Shown: piece by piece, positions 4,346-39,555 of the stretch
Layout of the letters: each line of letters opens with the position of its first letter
How positions within the stretch are numbered: position 1 is the first letter of the stretch
Source: a virus
Strand: one strand, 5' to 3'
Virus record (IMG/VR): IMGVR_UViG_3300002231_000758
Location: 4,496 to 46,529 of that record
DNA length: 42,034 nt
The notes under the pieces: model-generated
Database searches by the model: none
Told to the model about the DNA's origin: nothing
Seen by the model: the letters and a program-made list of their open reading frames with translations, nothing else
Program-made: the position numbers and the translations under genes

Positions 4346-4594
4346 CTATCTTAACGGTTCAAGGTTCGGATTCAAGTGAATGTTGGACAAGAATTGTCGG
4401 GCTTCTGCAATCTCGGCCGTGCACTGCTCTACCAGGGTGAGATCGCCCACCTCCTGGCTGACGGCCAGACAGACCTGCCAGGACCGGATCATGGCCATGG
4501 CGTTGATGAGCCGGCGCTTCCGATCACATCCGCGGCACTGGACGAACTCCAGGTCGGCCAACGGGCAATGGCATGTGGTGCAGGAGCGGCTCAT
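4346..4594 (-). CDS. Small zinc-finger protein (82 aa)
   Basis: The gene starts at ATG 4594, overlapping the stop of the XRE/sigma regulator by an ATGA junction, so the two are translationally coupled. The N-terminus has two Cys pairs, CTTC near residue 5 and CRGC near residue 20, followed by a basic patch (DRKRRL). This could be a treble-clef or zinc-ribbon fold. The remainder is helical (AMAMIRSWQVCLAVSQEV...TAEIAEARQFLSNI). The coupling suggests it acts with the regulator, perhaps as a transcription accessory or anti-factor, but nothing in the sequence proves that. I recognise no named family. Confidence 0.65.
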   Translation of the reverse strand: MSRSCTTCHCPLADLEFVQCRGCDRKRRLINAMAMIRSWQVCLAVSQEVGDLTLVEQCTAEIAEARQFLSNIHLNPNLEPLR

Positions 4595-5124
4595 CGCAGT
4601 TTCCTCTTCAACTTCTTGAGTGCTTTCTTCTCTATCTGGCGGACCCGCTCAAAGGATCGGTTGATATTCCTGGCCACGGCCTTCAGCGATAGCCTTTCAA
4701 AGAACCGCGCCTGGATAACCGTCCGCTCATACGGGGCGAGGTTACTGATCTCCTGGCGTAGCTCCTCGCGGAAATCCTCTGCCATCTCCGCTTCGCCAGG
4801 GAGTAGCTGGCGGTTCTCGGCAAGGCCAGCGAGCTGGCGCTGTTCAGCGAAGACGAAAGCCTTATTGGTGGGCACCTCATGTTGCAGGTGCTCGGGGAAG
4901 AGATCGATAGGCTCGTAACCCAGGGTATTGCAGATCTTCACCACCGAGATTCGCCACCCTTTCTCCATGGTCATAGGGGAAATCTTGAAGTTAAGAAGTT
5001 TGCCTATCGTGGATTGGCACACCCCTGACTGCCTTGATAGCTCCGCGGCGTTCCATCCAAACTCAGCCATAGCCTTGGCCATGCGGCCGTTCTTAATCGT
5101 GGAGGTTACAAGATAGTCACTCAT
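4591..5124 (-). CDS. XRE-type helix-turn-helix fused to sigma-70 region 4
   Basis: This 177-residue regulator has two DNA-binding parts. Residues about 12-80 form a Cro/CI-like helix-turn-helix (AKAMAEFGWNAAELSRQSGV, then QSTIGKLLNFK). Residues about 117-177 form a sigma-70 region 4 domain (LAPYERTVIQARFFERLSL, then FERVRQIEKKALKKLKRKLR). A glutamine- and glutamate-rich linker joins them. In sigma factors region 4 binds the -35 element and the beta flap of RNA polymerase. A fusion to a repressor-like domain could redirect host polymerase to phage promoters. Region 2, needed to melt DNA, is absent, so it cannot be a complete sigma factor. Small membrane peptide and zinc-finger genes flank it with ATGA overlaps. 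Confidence 0.8.
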   Translation of the reverse strand: MSDYLVTSTIKNGRMAKAMAEFGWNAAELSRQSGVCQSTIGKLLNFKISPMTMEKGWRISVVKICNTLGYEPIDLFPEHLQHEVPTNKAFVFAEQRQLAGLAENRQLLPGEAEMAEDFREELRQEISNLAPYERTVIQARFFERLSLKAVARNINRSFERVRQIEKKALKKLKRKLR

Positions 5125-5222
5125 TTGAACAGATCCAAAAACATCGACGCAAAGGTTGCGACAGTTGCGATAAAAATCACGGCATACACGATTACCATAA
5201 GAATGCCACCCAGGTCACTCAT
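5121..5222 (-). CDS. Single-span membrane micropeptide (33 aa)
   Basis: The frame runs from ATG 5222, overlapping the TGA of the radical SAM gene, to a TGA that overlaps the ATG of the regulator at 5124. It therefore sits between two genes with ATGA junctions on both sides, which strongly suggests a real, coupled gene. It is nearly all hydrophobic: LGGILMVIVYAVIFIATVAT then FASMFLDLFK. It would be a single transmembrane helix with almost no soluble part. The function is unknown. Holin-like, toxin-like or membrane-tethering roles are all possible. Confidence 0.65.
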   Translation of the reverse strand: MSDLGGILMVIVYAVIFIATVATFASMFLDLFK

Positions 5223-6253
5223 TGGGCCCTCCCTTTCTGTTTACGCCAGCACTTCCATGCGTCCGTCTCATGTTCCTGCGCATCAGATTGCGCTCCACAG
5301 GATTGGCATTCGATGAAGTAGATAGTGCCGTCTCCGGCCTTATTGGACATCGCCACAGCCTTGCCGCCGCATACGCACAGGTCGCCATCCGGTTGCAGGT
5401 TCTCGGCGCGTAGGTAGGCATCCCAATGTGGAGGGCTTCCCCGGTGTTGGTAATAGTAAGCCATGATCCCCTTTCTTGCCGCATCAGTCCAACCGGCCGC
5501 GCGTTGTTCTTCGCTTACCTGATTCTTGTCAGTTGCATCAAGCCGATGAAACCACATAGGGCAAACCTGCCTGACCTTGCCCGCGATAAATTCACACCTT
5601 TCCCATGCTTCCCCTGGTCCATCTTTCCAGCCTATCAAAGCGTAGGAATTCAGCCAAGTCTTCTTGACGCCGCCGGCAATCATCCGGTCAACACATAAGT
5701 TCCATTCGGGCAAGTCGCTTCGCTTATCGCAGGCAAGCCGAACCTTCGGCGCCTTCAACCGGGCAAGTCTTTCAATGTGATGATCATTCACAAGCCGGAA
5801 GTCAAGCCCCTGATTGAAGTCAACTCCTTCGTGTTTTTCAAGTCGGTCAAACACTTTGTCAAGATGTTCGGCCGAAGCCTTCAAAATGTTGTTGTCACAA
5901 ATCACCGGCAAGTCGGGCCAATCTTCAAGTTCCCTGAATCCGCCTTCTATCTTGGGGACCGCGCAAAACCCGCAACGGTTCGGGCAACCTAAAGTTGTCC
6001 GGGTTGCCGCCGGATTGATCCGTTGAAGAACCCCCGGGCAAGAATGCCCGACGGTCACAAAGTCAAGGTCATTGAAATAGTCAGGGAACAGTTCAACCGC
6101 CGGGCCCCCAACCGTTGCCGACTCCCAAAAGAAGTCACGTTGCATCAGCCGAATATAGACTTCCTTCAGGTCCCAAGTGAACGGGATTGAACAATACAGG
6201 GTGTCCCCGTCTTGCCAGTATAAAGGACCTTTGGGCCATTGGCTTTCACTCAT
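5219..6253 (-). CDS. Radical SAM protein with C-terminal Lar-like zinc ribbon
   Basis: I start the 344-residue protein at ATG 6253, because the open frame upstream overlaps other genes and reads poorly; a purine-rich AAGGAAGGGGG precedes it. Residues 88-100 (LGCPNRCGFCAVP) carry the CxxxCxxC that holds the 4Fe-4S cluster of radical SAM enzymes (C90, C94, C97). Later strands (VDFNQGLDFRL, about 144-153; KVRLACDK, about 170-177) fit the partial TIM barrel. From about residue 290 a second domain begins with CVCGGKA, IECQSCGA and a WKCW ending, like the Lar restriction-alleviation zinc ribbon common in phages. The substrate is unknown; nucleotide or tRNA modification is only a guess. The gene is in an early operon and coupled to the micropeptide downstream. 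Confidence 0.75.
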   Translation of the reverse strand: MSESQWPKGPLYWQDGDTLYCSIPFTWDLKEVYIRLMQRDFFWESATVGGPAVELFPDYFNDLDFVTVGHSCPGVLQRINPAATRTTLGCPNRCGFCAVPKIEGGFRELEDWPDLPVICDNNILKASAEHLDKVFDRLEKHEGVDFNQGLDFRLVNDHHIERLARLKAPKVRLACDKRSDLPEWNLCVDRMIAGGVKKTWLNSYALIGWKDGPGEAWERCEFIAGKVRQVCPMWFHRLDATDKNQVSEEQRAAGWTDAARKGIMAYYYQHRGSPPHWDAYLRAENLQPDGDLCVCGGKAVAMSNKAGDGTIYFIECQSCGAQSDAQEHETDAWKCWRKQKGRAQ

Positions 6254-6428
6254 GACCCGGACCCCCTTCCTTGTTCTCTTGATCGATGACCGGCCCTTTG
6301 CCAGGGATACAGATACAACAGCTTTCAGAATATAGCTGACCGTCAATGCCGCACTTGCCATAGCCCGCCGGATAGTTTTGCCGCTCCCATTCGTTGCAGT
6401 TGATACACGTTTCCCCGGGTCCATTCAT
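6246..6428 (-). CDS. Small cysteine-rich protein (60 aa)
   Basis: The frame is open from 6494, but the first 22 codons overlap the upstream gene. I prefer ATG 6428 (MNGPGETCINCNEWE), 14 bases after that gene's stop. A TTG two codons earlier, preceded by GAGGCTGGG, is also possible. Cysteines are arranged as CINC, then KCG, then CCIC, enough for one zinc or a small iron-sulphur site. The protein ends GGPGHE and its stop overlaps the radical SAM start by 8 bases. Cysteine-rich partners next to radical SAM enzymes sometimes act as substrates or metal-handling helpers, but here that is speculation. Confidence 0.55.
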   Translation of the reverse strand: MNGPGETCINCNEWERQNYPAGYGKCGIDGQLYSESCCICIPGKGPVIDQENKEGGPGHE

Positions 6429-10750: not shown

Positions 10751-13700
10751 TTACTTAGACCGTTTGATTCGTAACCTGCGGAGCTTCTGGAGGCCCCTGC
10801 GGGTGACGGGTTTGTCCTTTTTGACATCTTCGCCCGAGCGTATCCGTTCCTTCCTTGGCGCCTTACTCATGCGCTTGATCTGGGACCGGATACTCTTGTC
10901 AGTGATGAACGGGATCGCCTTGTTCCGGTTCTTACGGACCTGGGCGTTGTAGTTCTCAATCATCTCCATGATCTCGTCCCAGTCGTCCATGCTACGCTCG
11001 TTACGGGGAGTCAGGTAGAAGCGCCGGATCTTGGCGTAGATATCGCCGCGGCGGTCTGAGAAACCCCGTTCCGATGTTCTCTCGTTCCACTGCTCTTCGG
11101 ACATAGCAGATGTCCTGGCGGGATTGAAGCCGAAGCCGCGAATCCATCGCTCACTCGTGGTCGGTTTGATCTGCTCATTCTTGTAGAAAAGAGGCTGGTT
11201 GTTTCTAGCTGTAACGCCTTCACTTGCTTCCCGCATCTGCCGGATCGGACCGGCCAGGATTCTCGGGGAGAGCTTCTCGGCACCCTTAGTCACATCACCG
11301 CGCAAAATACTCTCAGTGCCCTGCAGGATGTCCTTGGCCATTGAGGCCGGAGCACCCAGGAGGTCCATCGGTTTGGTGGGTAAGTCGGTGATACCAATCT
11401 GCAGTGAACCACCCAGGTTGAAGCCAGCCAGTCCGGCGAGGCCCTGACGGCTGAAACGCTCTCCTGGGTCGCCAAACGTGCGACCGGCCCACTGATGAAG
11501 AGCCTCTTCCGGCTCCTCGGGCGGCACCTGACCAACGGCCTTAAACAGGAACTTCGTCAACATCGAGATGATGGGCATCGCCACGGTTGCACCGGCTCCG
11601 GCGATCACGGCCGGAGACAGGAGCATGTAGGCAAATGCCTCGCCATTCTGGCGGGCTTGCTTGGCGTCTTTGTTCTTGGCCGACACCGCAGTATCATAGC
11701 CAAGTTGGGTCAGCACTTGCAGGTAATTCTGTGAGAAGGTCTTGTACATATGCCACGCACTCATGGCCTGTTGCGGGGCGCCACCGCCACGGGTCCACCA
11801 AGGCTTGTTGGTCTTACCGTAACTGGCGTGGGCGTCATCGCTGATCTCCTTGGCTTCTAGTAGTGTCGCTTCCTGGGTCGCTTTCGAGCCGTCCCAGGTT
11901 CCCTCTTTTTGCCGCTTTGCTTTCAGCCCGTAGTACGCACCTGCAATAGTGCTGGCCCTGTTGACCTTCTCAGTGACCGAGAAGACTCCCATAGCCACGT
12001 TCATGACCTTGGCCCAAGCTTTGCCGGTGTACCCCTGGAGCGCCTGCATGGCCTCCATGTTCTGGAGTGCATCGTCATAGCCGCGGTTCTTGATCTCGTT
12101 GTAGAGCCACTCTTTCTCCTGGCCCTCTTTGGTGTTCTCAAAGCCCTTGCCTTTGCCGTGCTTCTGGTAGAGCCAATTGCGGACGTAGTCCGTGCCGCCC
12201 TGAGCCATGAGCTTGAACGATGAGGTGATCGGGATGCCGTGCTTCTTAAACACGGCCGGAACACTCGTGACCAGGGCAGTCATGTTAACCATACCTGGGG
12301 CCACGCCGGACAAGTACTTCAGACTGGCCAGTCCCTTGATCTTGTTCATGATGCGCTCGCTACGCTCTTCGTTCCGGAGCACCTCATGCATGTAGGACTG
12401 GATGTCCTTGAACGCATGTTCCTGGGTGGAGGAGTCGATACGTTTCTCGCGGACCATCTCGCGGTAGTCCGTGTAGAGCTCGCCCATGGCCTCGTTGTAT
12501 TCCTTGGTGCCGCTCTCCAGGAGCTCGCCGTCTTCGTCCATCGGCGGGTACTTGGCTTTATACTCGGCCCAGGTTACGTCCGTGCCCATGAACAGCCGCA
12601 TCATGTTCTGTGCCGCGATCCGTTTGGCGGAGCCGCCAGCCACGGCCTTACCGGCCAGGATGACAGACCGGAGAACATCCTCGACATAGCCCTTGTAGAC
12701 CTCCTTGCCGGTTCCCTTGCGCCGGCCGATCTTCCTCGACTGACTGCCATGCTGGTGGTAGGTGTTCGCCACCTGACTGACCAGGAGATCTCCGAAGGCG
12801 CTGACAGACAGGGAGTCAACGAAGCTGGTGTCCAGGGCTTGCGCCAGGGTCTTCTCGATGTCCTTGCTCGGGTTCTTGATCCGCCATGCCTTATCGTTAG
12901 GGTCGCTCGGTGGCGCCCAGCGGCCCGCACCGAGTGATTTGATCGTTTGGCCCTGTTGGCTGTTGGTCTGGCCGCGGACGACGAAGTAAGGATCAGTCCC
13001 GCCGTCTTTCCTCGGGTAGTCCTCAAACGTACCTTCCAGGCCGAAGTCCTCCAGGGAGATCTCCCGTTCCGACTTGCGCTTCATCTCGGCCAGGGTGTTC
13101 TGGAGGAGATCGTTCATGGCCACCAGACTGGAGTCCATGTACGCCTTCTCAGACGGCCGGTTGGAGATCTGCTTCTCGATCTTATAGCCCTGGAGCTCGT
13201 AGTAGGCGCCAACGGCATCCCGCATTACCGTGCTGTCGAACAGACGGAGGATCGGGTTTGTGCCTTCCTTGGTGGCCTTGAGCATGAACTTACCACTCAG
13301 CCGGATACGTGGCATGTAGTGGCCGCGGCGATCACCCATCTGTTTGAGGGCTTCAAACAGGGAGATCTTCTTGATGACGGGCTTGTCGTTCTCGTCCTTC
13401 TCGCCAGTGTCGTACTCCACTTCCAGCTCGGGCAGACCGAGTTCCTCGCGGAGCTTCTGGTTCTCTATTGCCTCGCTGACCAGGACGCCGTACATGCGGT
13501 GGTTCATGTGGCGGATGGACTTCAATGCCTGACCGGCGGCTTCGGAGCCGGTGGTCTGCACGTACTCAGCCGCTTCGGCGTTGTAGGCCACCATCCAGGC
13601 GCGTTCCTCAGTCTCGTACTCGGCGTTGTTGACCGCGGAGTAGGTGACATCGCCATTGGCGTTGTACCTCGGCTTCATGACCTGATAGGTCTTCTTGCCG

Positions 13701-16700
13701 TCATCGTCTTCCACTTCGTTTACGGTGTAGCCGAAGGCTTCCACATCCTGGTTGATCAGGTACTGCTGGAGCGCCTTCCACTCCTTTCGCATCTTGCTGG
13801 CGAACTCGGTGATGAAGCCCAGGTCTGACGGGCCCTCTCCCTGATCGCTATTGAAGATGAAGTTTGAGAAGATGTGCTTATAGTCGTTGATCTTGGTGGC
13901 CTCGTTGTAGATTGCTCGGGCCACGGGGATCTTCTTATAGATGTGCTGTGGCGTTCCCAGAAGCAAGGTCAGCGGGTGGAAGTCGGGCCGCTTGTTCTTG
14001 TCCTTGATCTTACGCACGGACTTGTGGCTTGCGTACCATTCCTTGATGGTGTGGCTCGCGATTCGCTGGTACCACTCCTGGGCATCCTTCATGGAGTCGA
14101 TAAAAGATTCGCCGGCAGTGTTCAGGACGCCCTTATCCTTCATCTCATCGAACTCGTAACGGCGTTCCGGCCGCAGTGCGTAGCGTTTATTCCGCTCCTT
14201 CTTAGTCTCTTTCTTCTGGTCCAGGAGATTGTACTGAATCATATCTGGGTGTCTCGGCTGATCTGGCACCGGAGCGATCCGGAGTTCGTCAGCATTCGGC
14301 TGGCGCTTAATCCACTTCTCGGCCATACCGCGTTGCATAGGACCGTCCAGTCCATACACAGGGACAGACTCGCCCGTTTCTCTATTGACAACCATGACCA
14401 AGTTTTTGATCATAGGCATAGGAGATCCGGCATTGATGTGGTCCAGCACCATGTTGGACACCTTGTCGACCAGTTTCCTAGCACGGAGAACCATCTTCGG
14501 GAAGTTGGCCTCTTTGAGAACCTTCTTCATCAGACGATCCTGAACGAGCTTAGGCATACCATACAACCGCGCTCGGGCCTGACGGTCAAAGTCGGTGCGA
14601 AGCTGGGCTTCTGCTTCTTTCTCGGTGATCTTGCCGGCCGCAAGGTCCATGACCGCGTCCTCGACAGAGAACGAGAATCCATCAAATACGAGGTTCTCAA
14701 CCTGCTGGAACTCAGCTTCCATTGCCGCCAGGAACTTGTCTGTCGGAGTGCCGAGTCCATCTACCAGGGGCTCGCCACTGGACTTCAGTTGCGCAAGCGG
14801 AGATCGGCGTTCGGTGAATGCATTGTAGTCGTCGAACAGAGTCTCTGCGGCATGACTGGCCAGGACCATGATTCCACCATCCTGGTCCGCCTCGTTGTTG
14901 CCAATCTCTGTTTCTAGCCAGTTGGATGCCCCGCTGACTAGTGCCGCGTCATAGAACCGCTTCTCCTCCGGCGTCTGGTCCTGGCGCTTGAGGGCATATC
15001 GGATGTCGGGGGATTCCATGAACGGGCGGACCTTGTCTAGGACCGCCTTAATCCCAGCGCGGAACTGTGGCCGCAATGATGCATTGTAGTTGTCATCATA
15101 GATGGGCAGATAGCCCTCGGGCGAATTGAGGGAACCCTTGGGCAGGACTCCGCTCTCTATGCGCCTCGCCATGTTCTGTTGTAGATCTTTGGCGAAGTCC
15201 AGTGCCCTACCTGCCACGTTGGACGGGAAGTCGATGTCCTTGCGGATCTCAGCGGCGGCTATACGCTGGTTTTCTGTTGTCTGCTGGGCTCGGTCGTAGA
15301 ATCGCTTCTTTAATCCAGATAGTGCATACCTGATGTCCGGCTGGCTCCCTTTCGGCGGGTCCGAGAGCTTATGTAAAGAGTCCGTTCCGCCTTCAATAAA
15401 GAACGCGGCAATGTCGTTGCGCTGATGAACAACATTTAGCATCCGATCTAGTATGACCAGTTGATCCTCGGCAGTGTCTGCTTTGAAGTATTCATCTGTG
15501 AGATTGAACAGTGGATTCAGGCCGTAGTCCGATATAGGATCACCGTACTCGGACTCGAAAAATTCATTAAAGAATCGATCCTTATCAAACGAATCCGGAT
15601 CAATATTATTATCTTCAAGGATGTCTTCAATAGACCTAAATCCATGCTCGGCCAGATCAGTAGATGCGGACAACCTAGCAAGATTTTTAAATATTTGGTC
15701 TGCTATACCAGCAAGTCCACGCTCATCGCGCACAAACCCCATACGGGCCGTGTCATTCCAAATTTTCTGTACTCGTCCAAACGACACTGGTGACCAAGAA
15801 ATCTTACTACCTGGATCACTGTCTAGGAATTCGTCTAAGATGGTAGCTTCTTGTCTGGTTTGCTCTTCATAAACATCCGCGATGTCAGACATGCGGGCCA
15901 CAGAGTACCTCTTGCCGCCACGTAGGCGCTTGCCTTGGGCCTTGGCCGGACGGCTGAAGCCACAGAACACTTTACAGGAGGAGCAGACACCAGTCTTACA
16001 ACAGACCTTGTTGTCGGCCACCTTCTTGAACTGGGCCGGAGTGATGCCTTCTACGCCGGACTCACGCAGATCCTTCTCGGTCACGCGGTCAGAGAAGATC
16101 TCTGCAGACGGTGCCTGGAAGATCTCTGCGAGCTGGCGGAGTGTTTTCTCTCCGATATTCTTAAAGATCGCAGGATTGTTGAAGCGCCAGATGTCCATCA
16201 GCAGGTCGGGATTGGTCCGGCCGTGATAGATCGTGACCACATCGATGTCAGGGTTCATAGTCGCCCTGATCGCATCGCGGCGGTTGATCCCTACATACCG
16301 GATCTTGATCTGCTCACCGTGCTTCTTGCGTAGGGCTTTCGCCTGCTTCATAGACATGCCAAATGCGATGAGTCTACGGGAGTCCCTCATCCGTAGGGCA
16401 CTCTTAAGCCGCCCACGGTCCAGTTTGGAGTACTTCCGGACAGAGTCGCGGCCCATGACGATCCGGTCCAGGTTATCGGGAAGGAAGTCGGTGGACACGT
16501 TCACGCGGAGGTTCTTGTACTTTGGCACGAACTTCTTCACGAACTCAGCCTGCTTGGTGATCGCCTTGATCGTCAGGCCGCGCCTTTTGGCGTCAGTCAG
16601 AATGCGGTCAACGGTCTTCTCCATCTGCGAAGTGTAGTCGCCGCTGGCGAACATGCGCATACCGCCGATGCTGTTGAAGAACTTCACCATAGGCTCGGGC

Positions 16701-19700
16701 ATGTCGAGGATCTGGTTGTTGTACTCGACGTACTTGTGGACCTTCTTGGCTTTTGCACCTTCCATCTTCCGGCGCTGGAGATCAGCTTCTGCCTCATTGC
16801 CGGCCGCAATAGCCTTCTCCATAGCCGCCTTGGCCTTGAAGTACTGCACTCTTGGCGCTTCGACGTAGCAATATAGGCATACGCTACCCATCGCCCGCAG
16901 TGGGCAGTCGGTGCTGATATCGAATGGACATGAGGGTCTTCTGATTGGCGTGGAGCGGGGAGACGCCGGCTCGGGCCAGCTTCTCATGCTTATCGTGGAA
17001 CGCACGGATCTGGGGCGTGGTACGCCGCGATATCCTCGGTGTTGTACCGCTGGGCCAGCCAGCCCTCGATGTTGGCTCTGTTCGTCTTGGAGACGGCGAA
17101 CCTGGGCCCCTGGAACGTGTCAGCGTCAAGGGCGTCCTGTTGCAGGTCTGTCTGCGGTGCGGTGCCGTCCTGGGCCTCGCGGTCATAGGTTCTCTGCAGT
17201 GGCTCGCCTGCGGCTACTTTCTCGGCCAGACGGGCGCCCTGGGTCAACTTATCCTCCTGGACAGTGATACCCAGAGAGCGGAGAATATTGTCGATGAAGT
17301 CCTTTATCTTGTCCCAGAGCGACTTCGGCACTTCCTGCATGACATCGATCTTGCCGTCATAGAGATCCTGGATCATCTCAGCGATCAACTCATGGTTCAC
17401 ATCGTCATCGGTCTGGAGCTGTTGGCCTGCCGCTTCATAGTCGGCTTCCAGTTTACGGATGCCGCTGATCTTGGCACGGTCACGGGCGAGGCCAACGAGG
17501 AGATCCCACTCCTTGTCGTTGATCATACCCAGGTCGCGCATCAGGTGGGTAAGCTCATGGTTGAACACGCCGTCCAGACCAACCTGGATTGTACGGGTGT
17601 CAGCCTCTGCAGATGCCACTATTCCCTTCTTGAGTTCCTTAACGGGCACCACATGGAGAACCTTGTTGTCGGCCGTCAGGATGTCCACACTGCCGTCCGG
17701 CTGGGCCACTGCCTGGACGCCGGCTAGCTTGGCAATCCGCTTGAGTGCCGCCACTGTCCTGGGCGGGAGTTCGGTGAGCCCTTGCAGGGAACGGCCCGAG
17801 ACGAATGCACGGATGCCGCGCTTGCCCAGGATGGCTTCCACGGCCTTCTTGCGCTCGGGCTTGAAGTTGTGGAGTTCGGACATGATGATGTCGGACGCAA
17901 TCTTGGTGCCCAACTTTTCCTGGACATCGAGCAGGCGCTCCACCTCGGCGTCAGTCATCGTCTTGGCAGACTTCTCTTGAACGTCAGCTTCCTTGAACAG
18001 GCGCTTGATGTTCGGGGCCTTCATAGCGATGTTGCCGGACTTGGTCCGGATCCACCCGTCACCAGCCTTCGGTTTTGCTTTGGCCTTCTTCTTAGGCTTC
18101 GGCTTAGTCACTGTCTTCGGCTTGGTGGCCTTCTTCTTACGCTGTTCGTTGATCTCCTGGAGCTTCTTCTTCGGCTTGGCCTCGACGGCCGCAGGCTTTG
18201 TCTGAGTAACAAGGTAGCGCAACGCCACACCCTTGCCGTCTCGGCGGCGTTCGGCGCCAGTGATATACCATTTGGTGGCATCAAACTTCACATACGGTGT
18301 CCCGTCCTTCTCCATAAAGACGGTGCGATACCTAAATTGTGGCCCTGTCTCGATCTTGCCCTTGATGATGTAGTCAGATGATGGGAATCGGACCATGATC
18401 TTCTGTGCTTTCTTGACTTCAGGCATCTCGGCCGCAGGCACATCTTCGTATGTCGAAGTGAACGCCTCGGTCTTGGCCTCGACGGCCGCAGGCTTCTCTG
18501 CTATGATCCAGGTTTTGTATCCCTTGCCACCCTTCTTAGTGGCGCCCTTGAAGTGGCGCTTTTACCTCGTTCATGTACGACTGGATCGGGCGGTTGTTCT
18601 GCCAGGACTCTCCCTGGTTCGTTGATTTACCCTTACCAGAACTGTCACCAGGGTGGATGGTGATCATCAGTTTTCCCCCAGGCTTCAGTGCGGCCCAGGC
18701 TTGGCGGAGGATGCGTTCCCGAAGGGCCCGCTCCTTGATGACGTTCAGGGTGTTATGGATGGTGACCGTATCAACGCCCTTCTCTGCGGCGTTGGCGGCA
18801 TCGACGTTCTCGTCCACAGTCCGGTTCCATGGGTCATAAGTGTAGTTCTGGGCGCCGGCCTTGTTGATGGCCTCAGTGGTGTTGTCATAACGGCCACCGC
18901 CGATGTCCAGGTTGACCATACCCTCGGACCAGACACCTTCCTTTAGTGCCCTACTGATGCCGGACGGGAGCTTCTTGTCGTTGATGCTGGTCTTGGCAGA
19001 CCTATACTTCTGTTTCTCGGGGAGCTTCCACAGTTGTGGGTTCTTCATCCCTTCAAACTTGGCCTGATCCTCTGCAGAGACTTCGCCCGCGACTTCCTTC
19101 ACGGCCGTCTTTTTGGCCTTCGGCTTTGCTTTCGCTTTGGCTTTCTTAGGTTTTGCCTTAGCTTTCTTCTTGGGCTTCGCTTCCTGGGGCTGTCCAATGT
19201 TCCATTCCTTACGGATACGGGCGATCAGGTCGGCACCTTCGACGGTAACCTTCTTCTTCTTGTGTTCCTTGATCGATACCTTGCCGCCCTTGTACTGGGC
19301 TACGCCATTCGGTGTGGTCTTGCTACCCTCGCCTTCCAGGAATGGCTGGATCGCGGCCACAATCTGCCCATCGGTGGCGTCACCGTCACGGAGCTCGTTC
19401 AGGTCTTCGGCCACTGTGCCCACTTCGCTCATGGTCTTGGCCAGGATGGTCTGCTCACCTTCTGTGGAAGGAGTAGGAGCCTCGGGTTCAGCCTTTGGCG
19501 TAGCCTCCGGCTCCTTCTCTTCCTCCGCGGCCGGTTGTGCCTCGGGTTCCTGGGATACTTTAGGTTCTAGTACCCCATCCGGCGAGGCTTCCGGCTCTTC
19601 ACCTTCGGGCTCTGGGACTTCTTCGGGTAGCGTTTCTTCTTCGGCTTTGACTTGCGCTTCACTGGCGTTCTCCTGTTGGGTCTGTGCAAAGAAATCAACG

Positions 19701-22237
19701 AAGTTCTGGGCGGTCTGGTCGGTAAGGTTGAGGGAGTAGCCCACCAGATCGTTCTGTAGCTGGTCACGGGCGGCTTTCATCTCTTCCAACATCTGTACGC
19801 GGGACTGGTAGCTCGGGCTATTGTCCAGTAGCTCCTGTACCTGCTCAGGTTGCAGTTCCGGATTGGCCGCACCGTAGTCGGCCATCATGGCTTCCAGCTT
19901 ACCTTCTACGTCTGCGATTTCTGCGCCGAGCTGACCGTATTCCTCACTGGAGTCCAGGAGGGCTTGGTGCTGTTGCTCGGCAATGACCTCGCGCTTCTGG
20001 AGGAGGGCCTGATAGACCGGATCAGTGTCAGCGGCAAACTGGAATAAGTCGCCATACTGGGAATCATTCTGGCGCTCATCGATGATAGAGTCGATCTCTC
20101 TGATCAGCCGACTGGATTCGGCTATAGCGGCGGCATGGTCGCCAACGCGCATGTAGCGATGGAGGATGTCGAGATCCTCTTCGGACTTGGCGAGCTCCTT
20201 GGCCCTGGCGTTGATCTCTTGGAGCTTCTCTACGGTCAGCGCCTTCTGGATGGCCTCTTCCTGGTCTACCGTATTGGGGTCAGTGCCCCAGTCCATACCG
20301 GAGTTCTTCTGTACGTGGATCGCGGCACCCACCTGATTGCCGTGGTAGTCGTCTACCAACTCCTCCCATACATCAGGGTGGACGAGGGATTTAGCCCATT
20401 CGACTCGGGCGTTCTCGACTTCGGCTTCGGCCCGCCTCTCTTCGGACTGGTTCAGGGGATCCTGCGGGGCCGCGGATATGGGTTGCACCGGACCCTGGTC
20501 CTTGTCCTGGATCAGGTTGTGCATCTGGCCCTTGGCCACTTCGGCTGGATCCAGGACAGAGGCGTCTGCCACCATCCGGTTCATCTCGGCCATCTTTGCC
20601 TTGTGCTGGGCCTGACGGCTCGCACCGTGCATCAGGGCGCCGGCAAATGAGGTTGGCATGGAGCCGGCCGGAATGATTGAGAACCCTATGGCTTCTGCCA
20701 GGAACTCATCGCCGTCAGGGATCACATCGCCCCAGTCTTCCATGCCGAAGGTGGCCCGCATAATCGAGCCCAGGCGTTCCTCACCCATTTCCTCTAGGAT
20801 ACCGTCAAACCCGCCAGCTTTGAGCATATCGCGGAAGGCCGCGCCAGTCCGGTTTTGGCCCATGCGCTTCCAGCCTTCTTCGATGGCCTCCATCGCGGTC
20901 TTGCTGAAGGCCTTATGGGCGGCTTTGGTTCCCCATTTCCTGGCGATGTTCTTGATCGGGTCAGTGACCAGCCCAAGCTCGGCACCAATCTGGTTACCTG
21001 CCGTCTCAGAGAAGTTTTCAATGAACACATTGCCCTGGGCCTTGAGCATGGTCTTCCACGGTGACTCTTCCACCTCGCGGAGCATCAGCTCACGGTCTGG
21101 ATCCATAGTCACGCGGCGATTGAAGTAGCCCTCAAGAGCACGATGCTGGAAGTACGGGATACGGGCCACGTTCTGAACCGCTCCACGTTTGACGGCGCGG
21201 CCGGCCAGCTTGGCGGCGTGTTTGAACCCGCCGCGCTGGAGGTTCTTCTTGAACATGCCGCGGAACATAGACTTGACGATGGAACCAGTCTTTGCAGTTG
21301 GCGGCTTGATGGTTCCAGGCAGGGCCCCTGCTGTGGCGCCCATCTCCATCATGAAGGCGGGTACGTCCAGGAGGTTGGTTGCGGCCATACCACCAACGCT
21401 CATACCGCGGATACCTTGGACTTCCTGGCGGAGGGTTTGGTTCTGAACCTCTTTCAGGTCTTCCGAGCGGAGCGTGTCGCCCTCAGGGCTATCTTCGTAG
21501 TCATCATCGTTCAATCGGCTCATCGAGCGGTATATCTTCATTGCCTCAATCACACCGTTAAGCTGGAACGGTAGACGCCGAGCCATGCCTTTCTTCTCAG
21601 TCAGCGCCTGGGACAGGGACTCGCCCACGCCCATCTTGCCGGACTCCTCGGCAATGGACCGGACCATGTCGGTGAAGACAGGAACGTCCTCCTCATCGAC
21701 CAGATCACGGAAGTTCTTTGAGATATCCATGTCGGCCAAGCCCTGGAGCTTTTTGTACGCCGTGGACTTAGGGATGTCGGTGAACTTGCTCACCTTGTGC
21801 TCTTCCCTGGTGAAATCCTGCTCGGCCAGACCGCCAGTAGCGAACTGCTCCGCCGTCTCCCATAGCTTCCTGTATCGCAGGTAGTCCTTATTGTCGCGAG
21901 CCTCATCCTCACTGTCAGGAAGTCGGAGCCTCAGTCGCCGGACATCAGGGGCTGTGTGGGTGAGGTGCTCGTAGCGGGTGATGGTCATCAATTGGTTACG
22001 GCGTTCATCGGCTTTCTCTGCGGCCGCTACCGCCTGATCCAGTTCCTCACCATACCTCGATGTGGCGTATTCCTCTAAACTTGGAGCTGGTCCTGGCGTT
22101 GGCGCCTGGGCTCCCCATCGATCCGCTTCAAACTCTTCCTGGGTCTGCTGACGGTTTGGGTCGGGAACAATCATCTCTTCGTCTTCCAGGGCGAGATCTG
22201 GGTATCGTTCAGAGGCATATGTTTCGAGGTCTGACAT
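10751..22237 (-). CDS. Giant polyvalent virion protein (methyltransferase, metallopeptidase, radical SAM modules)
   Basis: Three open frames (22237-18536, 18441-16990, 17005-10751) become one of about 3,827 residues if single extra bases are removed near 18560-18563, 17025-17026 and 16926-16927; the corrected length divides exactly by three. The ATG at 22237 has GAGGAA upstream. Modules in order: a helical N-terminus; a Lys/Ala/Pro linker; a SAM methyltransferase (residues about 1084-1222: VNLDIGGGRYDN, YDPWNRT, LKPGGKLMITIHPGD); a second basic linker; a zincin with HELTH (about 1560; 17545-17559); a radical-SAM/GP88-like domain with CPLRAMGSVCLYC (about 1777-1789) and a late Cys cluster (about 2078); then some 1,700 residues including a hydrophobic segment (about 3535). 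Such polyvalent proteins are thought to be injected with phage DNA to modify or protect it in the new host. The position after the structural genes fits an internal virion protein. Confidence 0.8.
15330..15905 (-). other. AT-rich module inside the giant gene
   Basis: This part of the giant gene, about 190 residues, is visibly richer in A and T. By hand count 15541-15660 has 47 G or C in 120 bases, about 39 percent, while the flanking gene is clearly GC-rich. It encodes an acidic helical domain (SIEDILEDNNIDPDSFDKDR, FFNEFFESEYGD). It is bounded by KRYSV (about 15899-15913) and DIRYAL (about 15325-15342), short motifs that recur at other module borders. This suggests a recently exchanged domain. 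Its function is not recognised. Confidence 0.55.
18175..18495. repeat. 24-base direct repeat within the giant gene
   Basis: Positions 18175-18198 and 18472-18495 are identical over 24 bases. They encode the same peptide, KPAAVEAK, on both sides of the short domain that follows the methyltransferase. The copies lie next to basic low-complexity linkers. Such repeats at domain borders could come from module duplication and could promote slippage or domain deletion. Confidence 0.75.
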
Positions 22238-22246
22238 CGGTATTCC

Positions 22247-23527
22247 TCACTTAACCTTCTTCTGTGACATGCTGGACATAACCCGATTAATGAATATCTG
22301 CTCCTTTCTGGATAGCGGCTTGTCACTTTGTAGGCGCCTTTGTATTTGCTCGAGGTCCGCATCGATAAACTTGTCACCGCCTTTGTACTTCTCTCTGGCA
22401 ACCAGGAGGTTGAGGTACGTCTTTTCGTACTTCTTATTAACCTTTAGATTGGTCTTAGCACCCTTAAGACCCATTATGATACCAGCGGCTTTCTTGAATT
22501 TGCTGAAGGCCGTTTTCTTAGGAGTTCCAGCACCCTGCGCCGGCTGTCCCGTCTGGCCAAGACCAAACTGTTCCGCGGCGATCTTACCCAGTTCATTAGG
22601 GCTGGCCTTCGGGTTACGGCGGTAGGCCTCATAGATTGCGCCCTGCAATCCAGCTATCTGGTCGTCGTTGAGCTCACTGGTGTCATACCCTGCCCGTTTT
22701 ATCTGCTCCTCTACGTTGGAGACTTCGGCATCGCTCGGCTCATATGGCTTCCCTGGCTTGACCGGCGTGGGAACCTTCTTGGGGCCAACACTGGCAGTGA
22801 TGCCACCCCTGGGATCGACCGTCACAGATTCGCGGTTACCAATCTTACCCTTCAGCACACGGTCACGAACGCGATCCTTTACGAGGTCGTTCTTCTTGTC
22901 GAGCTCTTCCTTCCTGGCGCGGTCTTTGAGTTCGTTCTTAAAGCGGATACCACTGCGGTTGAACTTCGCAATCTTATCTTTGACATCTAAGCCAAACTCT
23001 TTCTGCTTGCGCTCTGCCTCCGCGTCGAACTCCTTACTCTCCTGGCCGCGCCTATGGATATCCCACTTGTCTCGGAAGCTACGATACTTGATATCCTGTT
23101 CACCCTTACGGATCGTTTGCCCATGGAGTTCGCCGGCCCGTTTCTCACCAGCCTGCGCCCTGCCCTCTCTGGCCTGCGCCCGTCTCTCATTTGCCATGGC
23201 GATCTTCTTGTCCAGGAAGAAGCGGCGGTCTTTTGCATCCATCTCTCTGTTAAAGCGGGTCATGATGTCGTCCATACCGCGCTTACGCAAGCCGAAGTCG
23301 CGATCCGCCGACTGACGGGAGTAGATATCCCTGGCCGTCTGGGCGGTCAATTTGTGGGCCAGGGCGGTCTGGGCCTTTTGCTGGCCGGCGCCGGCATTAC
23401 GCAGATCCTGCATATACCCAGCGACTGCCTCGGGCCCTGCCCCTGATTTCTGTTGCCAATACTGGGCGTCGGCCGCGGCCATACGGTGACCAGGGTTACG
23501 TCTGCGTACTACTTTCATCGCGGCCAT
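22247..23527 (-). CDS. Charged coiled-coil virion protein (426 aa)
   Basis: The start at ATG 23527 has GAGGAGG upstream. The N-terminal half is glutamine- and alanine-rich (YWQQKSGAGPEAVAGYMQDL). A long helical region full of Arg, Lys and Glu follows (about residues 90-230, for example ANERRAQAREGRAQAGEKRA). After a proline-rich hinge (PTPVKPGKPYEPSDAEVSN) comes a small helical domain. It lies 10 bases upstream of the giant gene, the position of internal virion proteins in podoviruses (compare T7 gp14-gp16). A role in DNA ejection or capsid-core assembly is inferred from position and composition only. Confidence 0.6.
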   Translation of the reverse strand: MAAMKVVRRRNPGHRMAAADAQYWQQKSGAGPEAVAGYMQDLRNAGAGQQKAQTALAHKLTAQTARDIYSRQSADRDFGLRKRGMDDIMTRFNREMDAKDRRFFLDKKIAMANERRAQAREGRAQAGEKRAGELHGQTIRKGEQDIKYRSFRDKWDIHRRGQESKEFDAEAERKQKEFGLDVKDKIAKFNRSGIRFKNELKDRARKEELDKKNDLVKDRVRDRVLKGKIGNRESVTVDPRGGITASVGPKKVPTPVKPGKPYEPSDAEVSNVEEQIKRAGYDTSELNDDQIAGLQGAIYEAYRRNPKASPNELGKIAAEQFGLGQTGQPAQGAGTPKKTAFSKFKKAAGIIMGLKGAKTNLKVNKKYEKTYLNLLVAREKYKGGDKFIDADLEQIQRRLQSDKPLSRKEQIFINRVMSSMSQKKVK

Positions 23528-28448: not shown

Positions 28449-29516
28449 TTAGCAACTCGTCAGGATAGTCTTATCGGTGATGATTTGGCCATAGTGCAGT
28501 TGGGTGATTGTTCCTACGGATCCGCCAGAATAGGTCACGTAGGCCAAGGGCCAGTAAAGGGTCGTTGCAGTATGGGCAGGGACGCTGGCCGCATAGGCCG
28601 CGCTTGCCGCGACAGTGCCATCTCTGGTGATTGCATAGTAGATGTAACCGTTCCCGCTTATGGTCACATTCTCCTTCGTGCTCTTCGTGATTTTATCTGG
28701 ATGTACATGGATCACACCAGGGATACTGAGAGTGGTTCTCATGTTATCACCGATATTCACCCTGGCAGGGTAGGACGGGCTTGGGTCATCGGTCACGGCG
28801 AACGGGCCAGTATAGTCTCCAGCCCCTCCTGGCTCAAGCCAATCTCCCGCCCTATGCTGTTCAATAGACCAACGGTCCGATGTCCCGTCCTCGACTAGTT
28901 TGGCTATCAATCGTTTATACGTGCCAGCCCCGTCATCTGGAACAGGAGGAGTGGCCCCTGTCAGGCTTGCATAGGCATTGGTTGTAAATGCACCACCAGA
29001 AACCACAATGTGCTGGTATAGCCAAAGCGGCCCCGCTGTTGATGCTGGAAGATCAAAATCGGCCTCGGCAATCGCGGCCGTGGTGCCATCCTTCAGCCAT
29101 GCATTAGACGCGGTCACGGTGACCTTGCTGTCTGTGGAAATCAGAGAGTATGCGTCATCCGTAAAAAACGCCCTGGCTGACAGGATGTGGTCATGCCGCC
29201 ACTTCCAGGAAGTCTGGATGTACTTCCGGTTTCGGCGCGTCTCGCCCCAAACATACTTGATTCTCTCCCTGATCCGGTCAAAGGCGTCACTGGAGAGTTC
29301 GGGGTCATCCGCCAGGAGTTCCAGAATTCCGGCGATTGTATCTGTCTCGATGGAGTCTACCTGGGCGGTGAGTGATCCCTGAGCCTCATTCAGTTGCTGG
29401 ATGGCAACCTGGAGTTCATGCAACGCAACAGCGGTCCGCCGGTCTTCAATTTCCTGCGGACTTGTGAACCTGAAAGTTCCTTGACTAAGCTGAGTTGGTT
29501 TTTCACCAGTTGCCAC
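28449..29516 (-). CDS. Tail-associated or fibre-type structural protein (355 aa)
   Basis: The start is a GTG at 29516, placed by AAGGAG about 10 bases upstream; it overlaps the preceding gene by 14 bases. The N-terminus has a helical, coiled-coil-like region (ALHELQVAIQQLNEAQGSLT, then QVDSIETDTIAGILELLADD), typical of trimer-forming structural proteins. The rest is beta-rich with Gly/Thr repeats (AYASLTGATPPVPDDGAGTY; VTISGNGYIYYAITRDGTVA). It could be a short tail fibre or spike base. No hydrolase or lyase motif is visible. Confidence 0.55.
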   Translation of the reverse strand: MATGEKPTQLSQGTFRFTSPQEIEDRRTAVALHELQVAIQQLNEAQGSLTAQVDSIETDTIAGILELLADDPELSSDAFDRIRERIKYVWGETRRNRKYIQTSWKWRHDHILSARAFFTDDAYSLISTDSKVTVTASNAWLKDGTTAAIAEADFDLPASTAGPLWLYQHIVVSGGAFTTNAYASLTGATPPVPDDGAGTYKRLIAKLVEDGTSDRWSIEQHRAGDWLEPGGAGDYTGPFAVTDDPSPSYPARVNIGDNMRTTLSIPGVIHVHPDKITKSTKENVTISGNGYIYYAITRDGTVAASAAYAASVPAHTATTLYWPLAYVTYSGGSVGTITQLHYGQIITDKTILTSC

Positions 29517-31451
29517 TGGGGGTTAACTCCTTCATGTTTGTGGCGAGCTCTACGGTATAGACCGTGTAGTCGCTCTCAACCTCATAGGACCACTCAGAGC
29601 CGTTCGGCAGGTTGCGGAGCAAGAACGGGTTGGAGTCGGTCACGTATTGGCTCAGTACCTTGCGACCACGGTTATATAGCCGGAAGTGGACGGGGTAGTC
29701 GGCCGCGGCGATCCTGGCCGCTTTCGGATTGAACTTCACAGGGAACTGGAACCGGCCGGACTTCCACTTGAGCGTAGCATTCGGTCCCGTGGTGTCCCAG
29801 GTGGACACCCGCGCCAGGGACTCTTCGACATCGATCCGGAGGTTGGTGCCGCCGGCCACCGTCAGGAAGACCGACTTGTCCGCGGTCTTGGCGACCATGC
29901 TTCCTGGGGTCTGGTCGTTCCACTCGGTCCTGGTGAAGTGGTCCTTCGTCAGGTTGGTAATCTCCAGTCCGCCGCCTACGGCCATCAGCCCGTTATGGCT
30001 GGGCCAGATCAGCGTTTGCCCAAGACGGCAGAGCCCGAGCTTGTTCAGAAGCGGGTGGACATCGGGACTGGCGATCTCGTACAGCAAGAGCGCGGCTGGG
30101 TTGGAGCCTGTCACCATATACACCCTGCCGTCATCGCCAGTGGCTCCGGCAGTCCAGACAATGGCGGACGTACCACTGATCGCTACAGCAAGGATATTGG
30201 TATCGAACTCAATGGCGTAGTCCTCAGGCGTGACCCAGATCTTGCCGGTGGCCGTTGGGTACAGCATGTTGTCCTTGTAATAGAGCGCAAACTGGGCCGG
30301 ATGAAGGGCAGAACCTACCGCAAGGTTGGCCGGCGTGTCGGGGAGGGCGCCGTAGTCCTCCAGTTCGTCTGTGACCGGCAGGGTGACGGCGTCATAGAAA
30401 ACGTCTGCATCCACATTCGCCAGCAGGCGGAAACCGGATGACGCATCGGCCGAGCGATACAGGTTGTTTTTATTGTATGTGGCCTCCCTGGTTGTCGTCA
30501 ACTTGATCCCTTGGCCAGGGTCGAGCTGTACCACCGTAGACAGTTCGCTGACGGGCCCCTCGTACTCGTTCCCGCTATCTTCCTTGACCATAGACTGCAT
30601 GTAATAGAACACGCGGGTGCGAGGATCAGTGTAGTTCATCCTACAGATGAAGGTGATATTGATATTGACCACACCCTCAAACGGATCCCCAGGTCCAGTC
30701 CGGCACGGACGGATCGTAATGGTCCTCGTCCCAGTTGGGCCCCGATCACATCCACCACTTCCAATGTGGCATAGTTGATATCTATGGACCCTGCTGGCGG
30801 TGCGGCCGAATAATTTGACCAGTCCGTTGGCATGTATAGCGGGATCGCCGCCTTGATGAACTCGGGATCGCTCGGTGTCGCAGTATCTGGATGCTGAGAG
30901 GTGTCACTGGGGCCGCCATTGTAGTCGCCAGTTCCAGGGGAGAAGTCGAACTGGTACTTCGGGCCGCGAACGAAGAAGGGGCCCCCTCCTGCCATTGCCT
31001 TGGTGAATCGGGCCATCGAGAAGGTGACCTCAATGCCGCGTTTGGTGTAGCGGGTCCACTTGTAAGACAGGGGCTGCGCGGATGCCAGATCCTCATAGAC
31101 AAGCTCTTCGGCACCGGCTGTCCGGTCCATATAGCTCAACCACACCCTGGCCGTCACATCAAACCATGTAGCAGGCTGGGCGAACCGGAATTTATCCGTC
31201 TCGACGTAGGATGGGGCGTCAGGAACAGGGATGTCCCAGATCTCTGAAGAGTCTATATCGCCGTTCAAGTTGGCGCCATCATTCATCTGATTGAATGGAG
31301 TGTCCACATTGATTGGGACAAGGGCACCCGAAGTCAGGTCCACGTTCTCAGCGGTCTGGGCCATACCCAGCTCTGCGAGCCTACGGGTATCGTGGTTCCC
31401 CACGCGGGGCATAATCCCGCCGTGCTGTTCCGGACTGCGAATGATAGTCAC
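29503..31451 (-). CDS. Large late structural protein, frameshifted (about 648 aa)
   Basis: Two frames (31451-30636 and 30672-29503) are joined by removing one G from each of two GGGG runs on the coding strand (30740-30743 and 30687-30690). The bridge then reads IGPNWDEDHYDPSVPDWTW followed by DPFEGVVNINITFICRMNYT. The corrected length is 1,947 bases, 648 residues. The N-terminus (RLAELGMAQTAENVDLTSGA) and the later beta strands (LNKLGLCRLGQTLIWPSHNG; RVYMVTGSNPAALLLYEI) resemble podovirus tail tubular or nozzle proteins. I hold that only moderately. It is preceded by adaptor-type genes, which fits a tail protein. Confidence 0.6.
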
Positions 31452-39534: not shown

Positions 39535-39555
39535 AAATCGGGTCAAAACCGATTT
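39535..39555 (-). terminator. Hairpin at the terminase stop
   Basis: AAATCGG (39535-39541) pairs with CCGATTT (39549-39555) across a seven-base loop. The stem overlaps the terminase stop codon at 39554-39556. No T run follows. It may slow or stabilise transcript ends rather than terminate. Confidence 0.35.

Follow-up and report, generated by a model that had tools for sequence, protein, structure and literature searches.

The stretch of viral DNA analysed here (hereafter the window) comprises 42,034 bases out of the 55,245-base record IMGVR_UViG_3300002231_000758 and carries on its minus strand a giant locus of four consecutive frame segments. In our judgement the locus is likely to be a single late-expressed gene encoding a polyvalent protein that is carried in the capsid, processed by a zincin, ejected with the DNA and active early in infection. 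Proteins of this kind are known, but the cargo is of a new kind: a module that resembles radical S-adenosylmethionine (SAM) enzymes.

Reading frames of the giant locus and their relatives

The locus is covered by three adjacent minus-strand open reading frames (ORFs), 22237-18536 (1233 residues), 18441-16990 (483 residues) and 17005-10751 (2084 residues), as reported in a preliminary description of the window, which had joined them into one protein. A codon-usage scan trained on the other genes of the window places the switches of the best frame at ~18550, ~17005 and ~16900, the same places as those named in that description. The frame segments are, in order, A, B, a short C of ~30 codons and D, with A and D sharing a frame. 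Open frames of 1,233 and 2,084 codons far exceed chance expectation, and each of the frame changes falls within a conserved domain. For the searches, the segments were joined with an X at the junctions, the bases being left unrepaired, giving a protein of ~3,829 residues. That the corrected length is a multiple of three, as had been pointed out earlier, is correct but carries no independent weight, because three equal one-base shifts automatically return the last segment to the frame of the first.

Comparison with relatives provides three lines of sequence evidence, which support the assignment of the four segments to one gene. Firstly, the unrelated viral contig L108/L183 contains an open frame of 2,882 residues that aligns with residues 1720-2097 of the joined protein, unbroken through junctions 2 and 3 (38% identity; 1.6e-75 and 2e-78 in separate comparisons). 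Secondly, two phages whose capsid proteins are related (61% and 54% identity) have an uninterrupted giant gene, of 4,328 residues in the first and at least 3,908 in the second, and the 4,328-residue protein aligns with segment A at 1e-10. Thirdly, the methyltransferase of an uncultured 485-kb phage (LR745208), 45% identical up to junction 1, continues into the last strand of the domain, which can be obtained here only from the next frame; this line is the weakest of the three, the stretch past the junction being short. The earlier proposal of one giant protein is thus supported: in relatives a single frame spans junctions 2 and 3 and coding continues past junction 1, and related phages have intact giants.

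Methyltransferase, zincin and candidate processing sites

The methyltransferase spans residues ~1073-1250. Besides the LDIGGG motif, it matches phrog_14016 (4e-9) and Methyltransf_23 (2.7e-5; 24.4 bits, just below the cut-off of 27), which agrees with the class I module recognised previously, and it weakly matches a model for a phosphorothioation-associated methyltransferase. A DarB-type N6-adenine methyltransferase was considered and rejected, the domain being Methyltransf_23-like; PF01555 and helicase domains found no match in the giant protein. In the N-terminal region, a match to LPD14 at residues 406-504 is sub-threshold (17.5 bits, cut-off 27).

The HELTH sequence lies at residue 1559 of the joined protein, and an HExxH motif is expected 0.06 times by chance in a protein of the same composition. 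The downstream HELIAE helix parallels EEFVAEAF and VELYAEAW in relatives. The combination of HExxH with a downstream glutamate identifies the region, at the level of motifs, as a putative zincin metallopeptidase, in keeping with the metallopeptidase of the preliminary description.

A linker motif, R-[YF]-[AS]-[VL], occurs in five copies (0.28 in shuffled sequences), all at residues 1711-2689; the first two flank the radical-SAM-like module and two lie within an exact PDIRYAL repeat. Other giant proteins carry repeated motifs of their own: three VLYS/ILYS sites are present in L108 (residues 1215, 1370 and 1944) and four LFQ sites in L105 (residues 318, 531, 675 and 1700). Possibly, the repeated linker motif of each giant protein marks the sites at which its own zincin would process it, with co-varying specificity.

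The radical-SAM-like module

The CX8CX2C motif of the module lies at 16868-16906 (residues 1779-1791) and the late CC..C..C..C cluster at 15962-16003 (residues 2080-2093), both where they had been noted before. Relatives were retrieved with a degenerate DNA pattern for GG.R.F..GDY, and 18 further sequences were aligned. The aligned modules have in common CxxCY, GG.R.F..GDY, K.ITK, individual S, R and H residues and the late CC..C..C..C. CxxC, GDY, ITK and the late CC..C..C are invariant across the 19 sequences, and the first cysteine of the three-cysteine motif is conserved with variable spacing.

The structure model of the window's own module (predicted local distance difference test, pLDDT, 78; predicted template modelling score, pTM, 0.77) retrieves triosephosphate isomerase (TIM) barrels in Foldseek, with viperin on top by probability (0.84-0.89; E 0.1-0.2). 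With L099, a relative that is complete and stands alone (37% identity in the alignment; pLDDT 82, pTM 0.83), viperin and the PFL-activating enzyme come out on top with probability 1.00 and E ~4e-4, and in the comparison with viral models a GP88-domain protein reaches 0.99. The models thus support a partial TIM-barrel fold of the radical-SAM type, in which GDY probably occupies the GGE position. The earlier label of radical-SAM/GP88-like holds at the level of the fold through L099; membership of Pfam GP88 (PF17338) was rejected because a search at E up to 10 gave no match to that model, and the likeness to GP88 is confined to the fold. Viperin membership was also rejected, the spacing being CX8CX2C and not CX3CX2C; L099 matches the viperin model NF038283 at 7.5e-4 with 18.7 bits, far below the family cut-off of 180, and the window's own module does not match it. 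A direct match in sequence between the module and solved structures was likewise rejected.

The cysteine module could alternatively be a structural or nucleic-acid-binding TIM barrel with iron-sulfur or zinc sites in place of an active radical-SAM enzyme. The non-canonical CX8CX2C spacing, the lack of a sequence match to PF17338 or to PF04055 (the latter at E up to 1) and the scores that generic TIM barrels also reach in Foldseek are in line with such a role, but the best fold matches are radical-SAM enzymes and the CxxC, GDY, ITK and late cysteine residues are retained in all the aligned sequences, which makes it unlikely.

Occurrence of the module in other phage proteins

The module is present in two other giant proteins, one of 2,882 residues and one of at least 2,478 residues with two ART-PolyVal stretches. 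It also occurs in 821-residue proteins. The gene for one of them has a phrog_376 tail protein gene on one side and, on the other, a phrog_6651 internal virion protein gene and then a tail gene, which is the order of T7-like internal core genes. About ten proteins of ~610 residues carry it, one of them encoded near baseplate genes, and it stands alone in proteins of 220-245 residues. The 231-residue hypothetical protein WPA89565.1 of Moorella phage MTATph1 is the same module, free-standing and unfused, with both cysteine clusters aligning. The top BFVD match lies inside another uncultured-phage protein, whose length is at least 1,313 residues. The module is therefore a recurrent cargo domain.

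Single-sequence scans with the 2,084-residue and 1,233-residue pieces gave no viral-contig matches, and the first two-sequence profile gave none in viral or genome contigs. The pattern ITKQ..FV.KF returned one match, which was false and not a relative. In a myovirus-like contig a ~610-residue module protein follows directly after a tRNA nucleotidyltransferase gene (L113:9324-12577; also L104), an adjacency that is a possible hint at an RNA target.

Comparison with known systems and probable role

Polyvalent proteins, as surveyed by Iyer et al. 2017 (PMC5512222), resemble the present protein in being very long and multi-domain, with a zincin hub domain (here putative, by motif), a methyltransferase and late-gene neighbours; the window protein differs by its radical-SAM-like module, and the survey text makes no mention of a radical-SAM or iron-sulfur domain. 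Given the frame evidence, unrelated activities (methyltransferase, zincin and radical-SAM-like module) lie in one polypeptide, and the gene stands next to virion genes, following those for the portal, capsid and internal virion proteins. The combination had been called unusual in the preliminary description. The absence of the domain from the survey agrees with this, although the module itself is not unique, being found again in further giant and virion-type proteins of phages.

The C-terminal region is common to the window protein and the proteins annotated as DarB-like in Skulduggery, PEp14 and POI1126. DarB is an EcoKI-type N6-adenine methylase fused to an SF2 helicase, whereas the window protein has neither an N6-adenine methylase nor an SF2/Strawberry-notch helicase. 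The 2,307-residue EVB41_084 of RHph_TM3_14A lies at the same end of the late cluster and has a zincin motif and a homologous C-terminus; it differs in having an InPase domain and in lacking the radical-SAM-like module and a methyltransferase match. Giant proteins of related phages (L091:5285-18268 and L094:3-11726) carry Strawberry-notch-type helicases, and one of them also has InPase and an N6-methylase-like domain. The best fold matches of the module, viperin with the prokaryotic viperins and the PFL-activating enzyme, have CX3CX2C in place of CX8CX2C and lack the extra C-terminal cysteine cluster.

From N- to C-terminus, the protein would consist of a helical packaging or LPD-type region, the class I methyltransferase, the zincin, the radical-SAM-like module with its second cysteine cluster, further regions that are uncharacterised and, at the C-terminus, a helical region common with the DarB-like giants. 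The ~3,830-residue product would be made with the late virion proteins and most likely travel in the capsid, to be ejected together with the DNA. The zincin would probably cleave the precursor at the R-[YF]-[AS]-[VL] linkers, releasing the radical-SAM-like module and other parts, and the freed methyltransferase and radical-SAM enzyme, the latter with its presumed cluster bound, may act in the first minutes of infection. Their most plausible action would be to modify a nucleic acid, a host protein or a nucleotide, blunting defence. The DarB-like C-terminus and the late-gene position favour packaging and ejection; the previous suggestion that the protein is delivered along with the DNA and modifies or shields it is a reasonable inference from context. 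More broadly, we tentatively propose an unnamed radical-SAM family that is packaged within phage giant or ejectosome proteins, released by the zincin of the same protein and injected to act by radical chemistry, as infection begins, on a target of the host or the phage, a proposal that is possible and stops a little short of probable.

A protein that acts in the producing cell late in infection and is never ejected would agree with the relatives of the L113 type, in which the module is a separate protein adjoining a tRNA nucleotidyltransferase. However, the giant locus comes after internal virion protein genes, a module relative sits in a T7-like internal-virion cluster, and the C-terminus is common with annotated DarB-like proteins; the DarB of P1 belongs to the phage head and protects the DNA that is injected (PMC5512222). 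These observations render action confined to the producing cell rather unlikely.

Several observations weigh against the reading of a capsid-carried, zincin-processed protein with a radical-SAM cargo. The closest capsid relatives carry other cargo at the locus (helicase, pyrophosphatase), and the exact architecture is therefore known in only one record; a search of 35 records, of which 34 are capsid-related, with the 2,084-residue piece gave no match, so that the radical-SAM-like module is not general at this locus. Partly because junction 3 cuts off its first strand, the window's own module has a weak fold match as judged by E-value, with many TIM barrels ahead of viperin. No Pfam, PDB-sequence or NCBIfam model recognises this module in sequence searches. 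The R-[YF]-[AS]-[VL] motif was picked after looking, and an unbiased scan for repeated motifs failed to single it out.

To our knowledge, no oxygen-sensitive iron-sulfur radical enzyme has been described as virion cargo. A recurrent module tying radical enzymes to virion-type giant proteins would point to new early-infection chemistry, and its invariant residues together with the small stand-alone relatives (~220-245 residues) make it directly testable. The giant proteins encoded at this locus share one plan, on which the enzyme cargo is swapped between helicase, pyrophosphatase, methyltransferase and radical SAM.

Origin of the frame changes

The frame changes are most simply explained as single-base errors in the contig, a recent real mutation being the alternative. 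If real, they might mean that the giant gene is decaying or has already been replaced by separate products. It counts against an intact gene that all three indels lie in this one gene, two of them within ~100 bases, while the portal, capsid, DnaB and terminase genes look intact; a search against the relative G002 found no other clearly broken genes in the window. Decay is nevertheless improbable, since the ~3,830 codons contain no other stop and have kept their codon usage, and the breaks cut through the methyltransferase and the radical-SAM barrel, so that separate products would be broken enzymes. Moreover, reading the sequence showed no clear Shine-Dalgarno sequence ahead of either inner GTG codon (18441 and 17005). 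Programmed ribosomal frameshifting at the junctions, yielding the full protein plus shorter forms, would fit the common direction of the three shifts, but relatives are without such shifts, we know of no precedent for three of them in one gene, and this explanation is highly improbable.

Features and gene neighbourhood

The features of the giant gene are listed in Table 1.

Table 1. Coordinates of the giant gene, its domains, junctions and candidate processing sites, and of the internal virion protein gene in the window
Feature	Position	Strand	Basis
Giant polyvalent-protein gene (predicted), ~3,830 codons, four consecutive frame segments	10751..22237	-	ORFs, codon usage, one-frame relatives
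Start codon ATG at 22237, preceded by Shine-Dalgarno-like GTGAGG	22235..22250	-	sequence reading
N-terminal helical region, residues 214-649, common with 4,328-residue protein of related phage	20291..21598	-	sequence matches
Class I SAM methyltransferase (LDIGGG), interrupted by junction 1 before last strand	18492..19021	-	Methyltransf_23, phrog_14016, LR745208
Junction 1, frame change interval	18538..18561	-	stop codons; codon usage ~18550
Zincin-like metallopeptidase; HELTH (17545-17559), then HELIAE helix with presumed third zinc ligand	17164..17796	-	motif
Candidate processing site 1, RFAV, between zincin and radical-SAM-like module	17092..17103	-	linker motif
Junction 2, frame change interval	16992..17213	-	stop codons; codon usage ~17005
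Junction 3, frame change interval	16886..17119	-	stop codons; codon usage ~16900; homology near 16925
Radical-SAM-like module: CX8CX2C, GGMRMFASGDY, AITKQ, late CC..C..C..C	15950..16995	-	alignment, fold
Candidate processing site 2, RYSV, just past radical-SAM-like module	15899..15910	-	linker motif
Candidate processing site 3, RYAL within PDIRYAL	15320..15331	-	linker motif
Candidate processing site 4, RYAL within PDIRYAL (exact 7-mer repeat)	14990..15001	-	linker motif
Candidate processing site 5, RYAL	14174..14185	-	linker motif
C-terminal region common to giants of RHph_TM3_14A and phages with DarB-like annotation	11114..12106	-	phrog_22591 2.4e-9
Internal virion protein gene, upstream of giant gene in same late block	29503..30672	-	phrog_511 1.6e-33

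The late block on the minus strand consists of the genes for the terminase large subunit, portal, capsid protein and internal virion protein, followed by the giant locus. The capsid protein is closest to that of Rhizobium phage RHph_TM3_14A (44%). Around the phrog_511 internal virion protein, three minus-strand ORFs at 28449-31451 overlap by 14-37 bases and the N-terminal half of the family is unmatched; an additional frame change is possible there. The terminase large subunit (39554-42034, minus strand) contains an insert of ~314 residues bearing a LAGLIDADG domain, which is missing from the 510-residue terminase of a relative and is most likely an intein.

Downstream of the giant locus lie genes for RecE, RecT, a radical-SAM-like protein, a sigma-like regulator and DnaB. 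The radical-SAM-type protein, the second in the window (5219-6424, minus strand), matches phrog_9298 at 5e-21 and has a weak C-terminal match to a Lar-like zinc finger, and the sigma-factor-like or regulator protein (4591-5124, minus strand) is encoded amid the replication genes.
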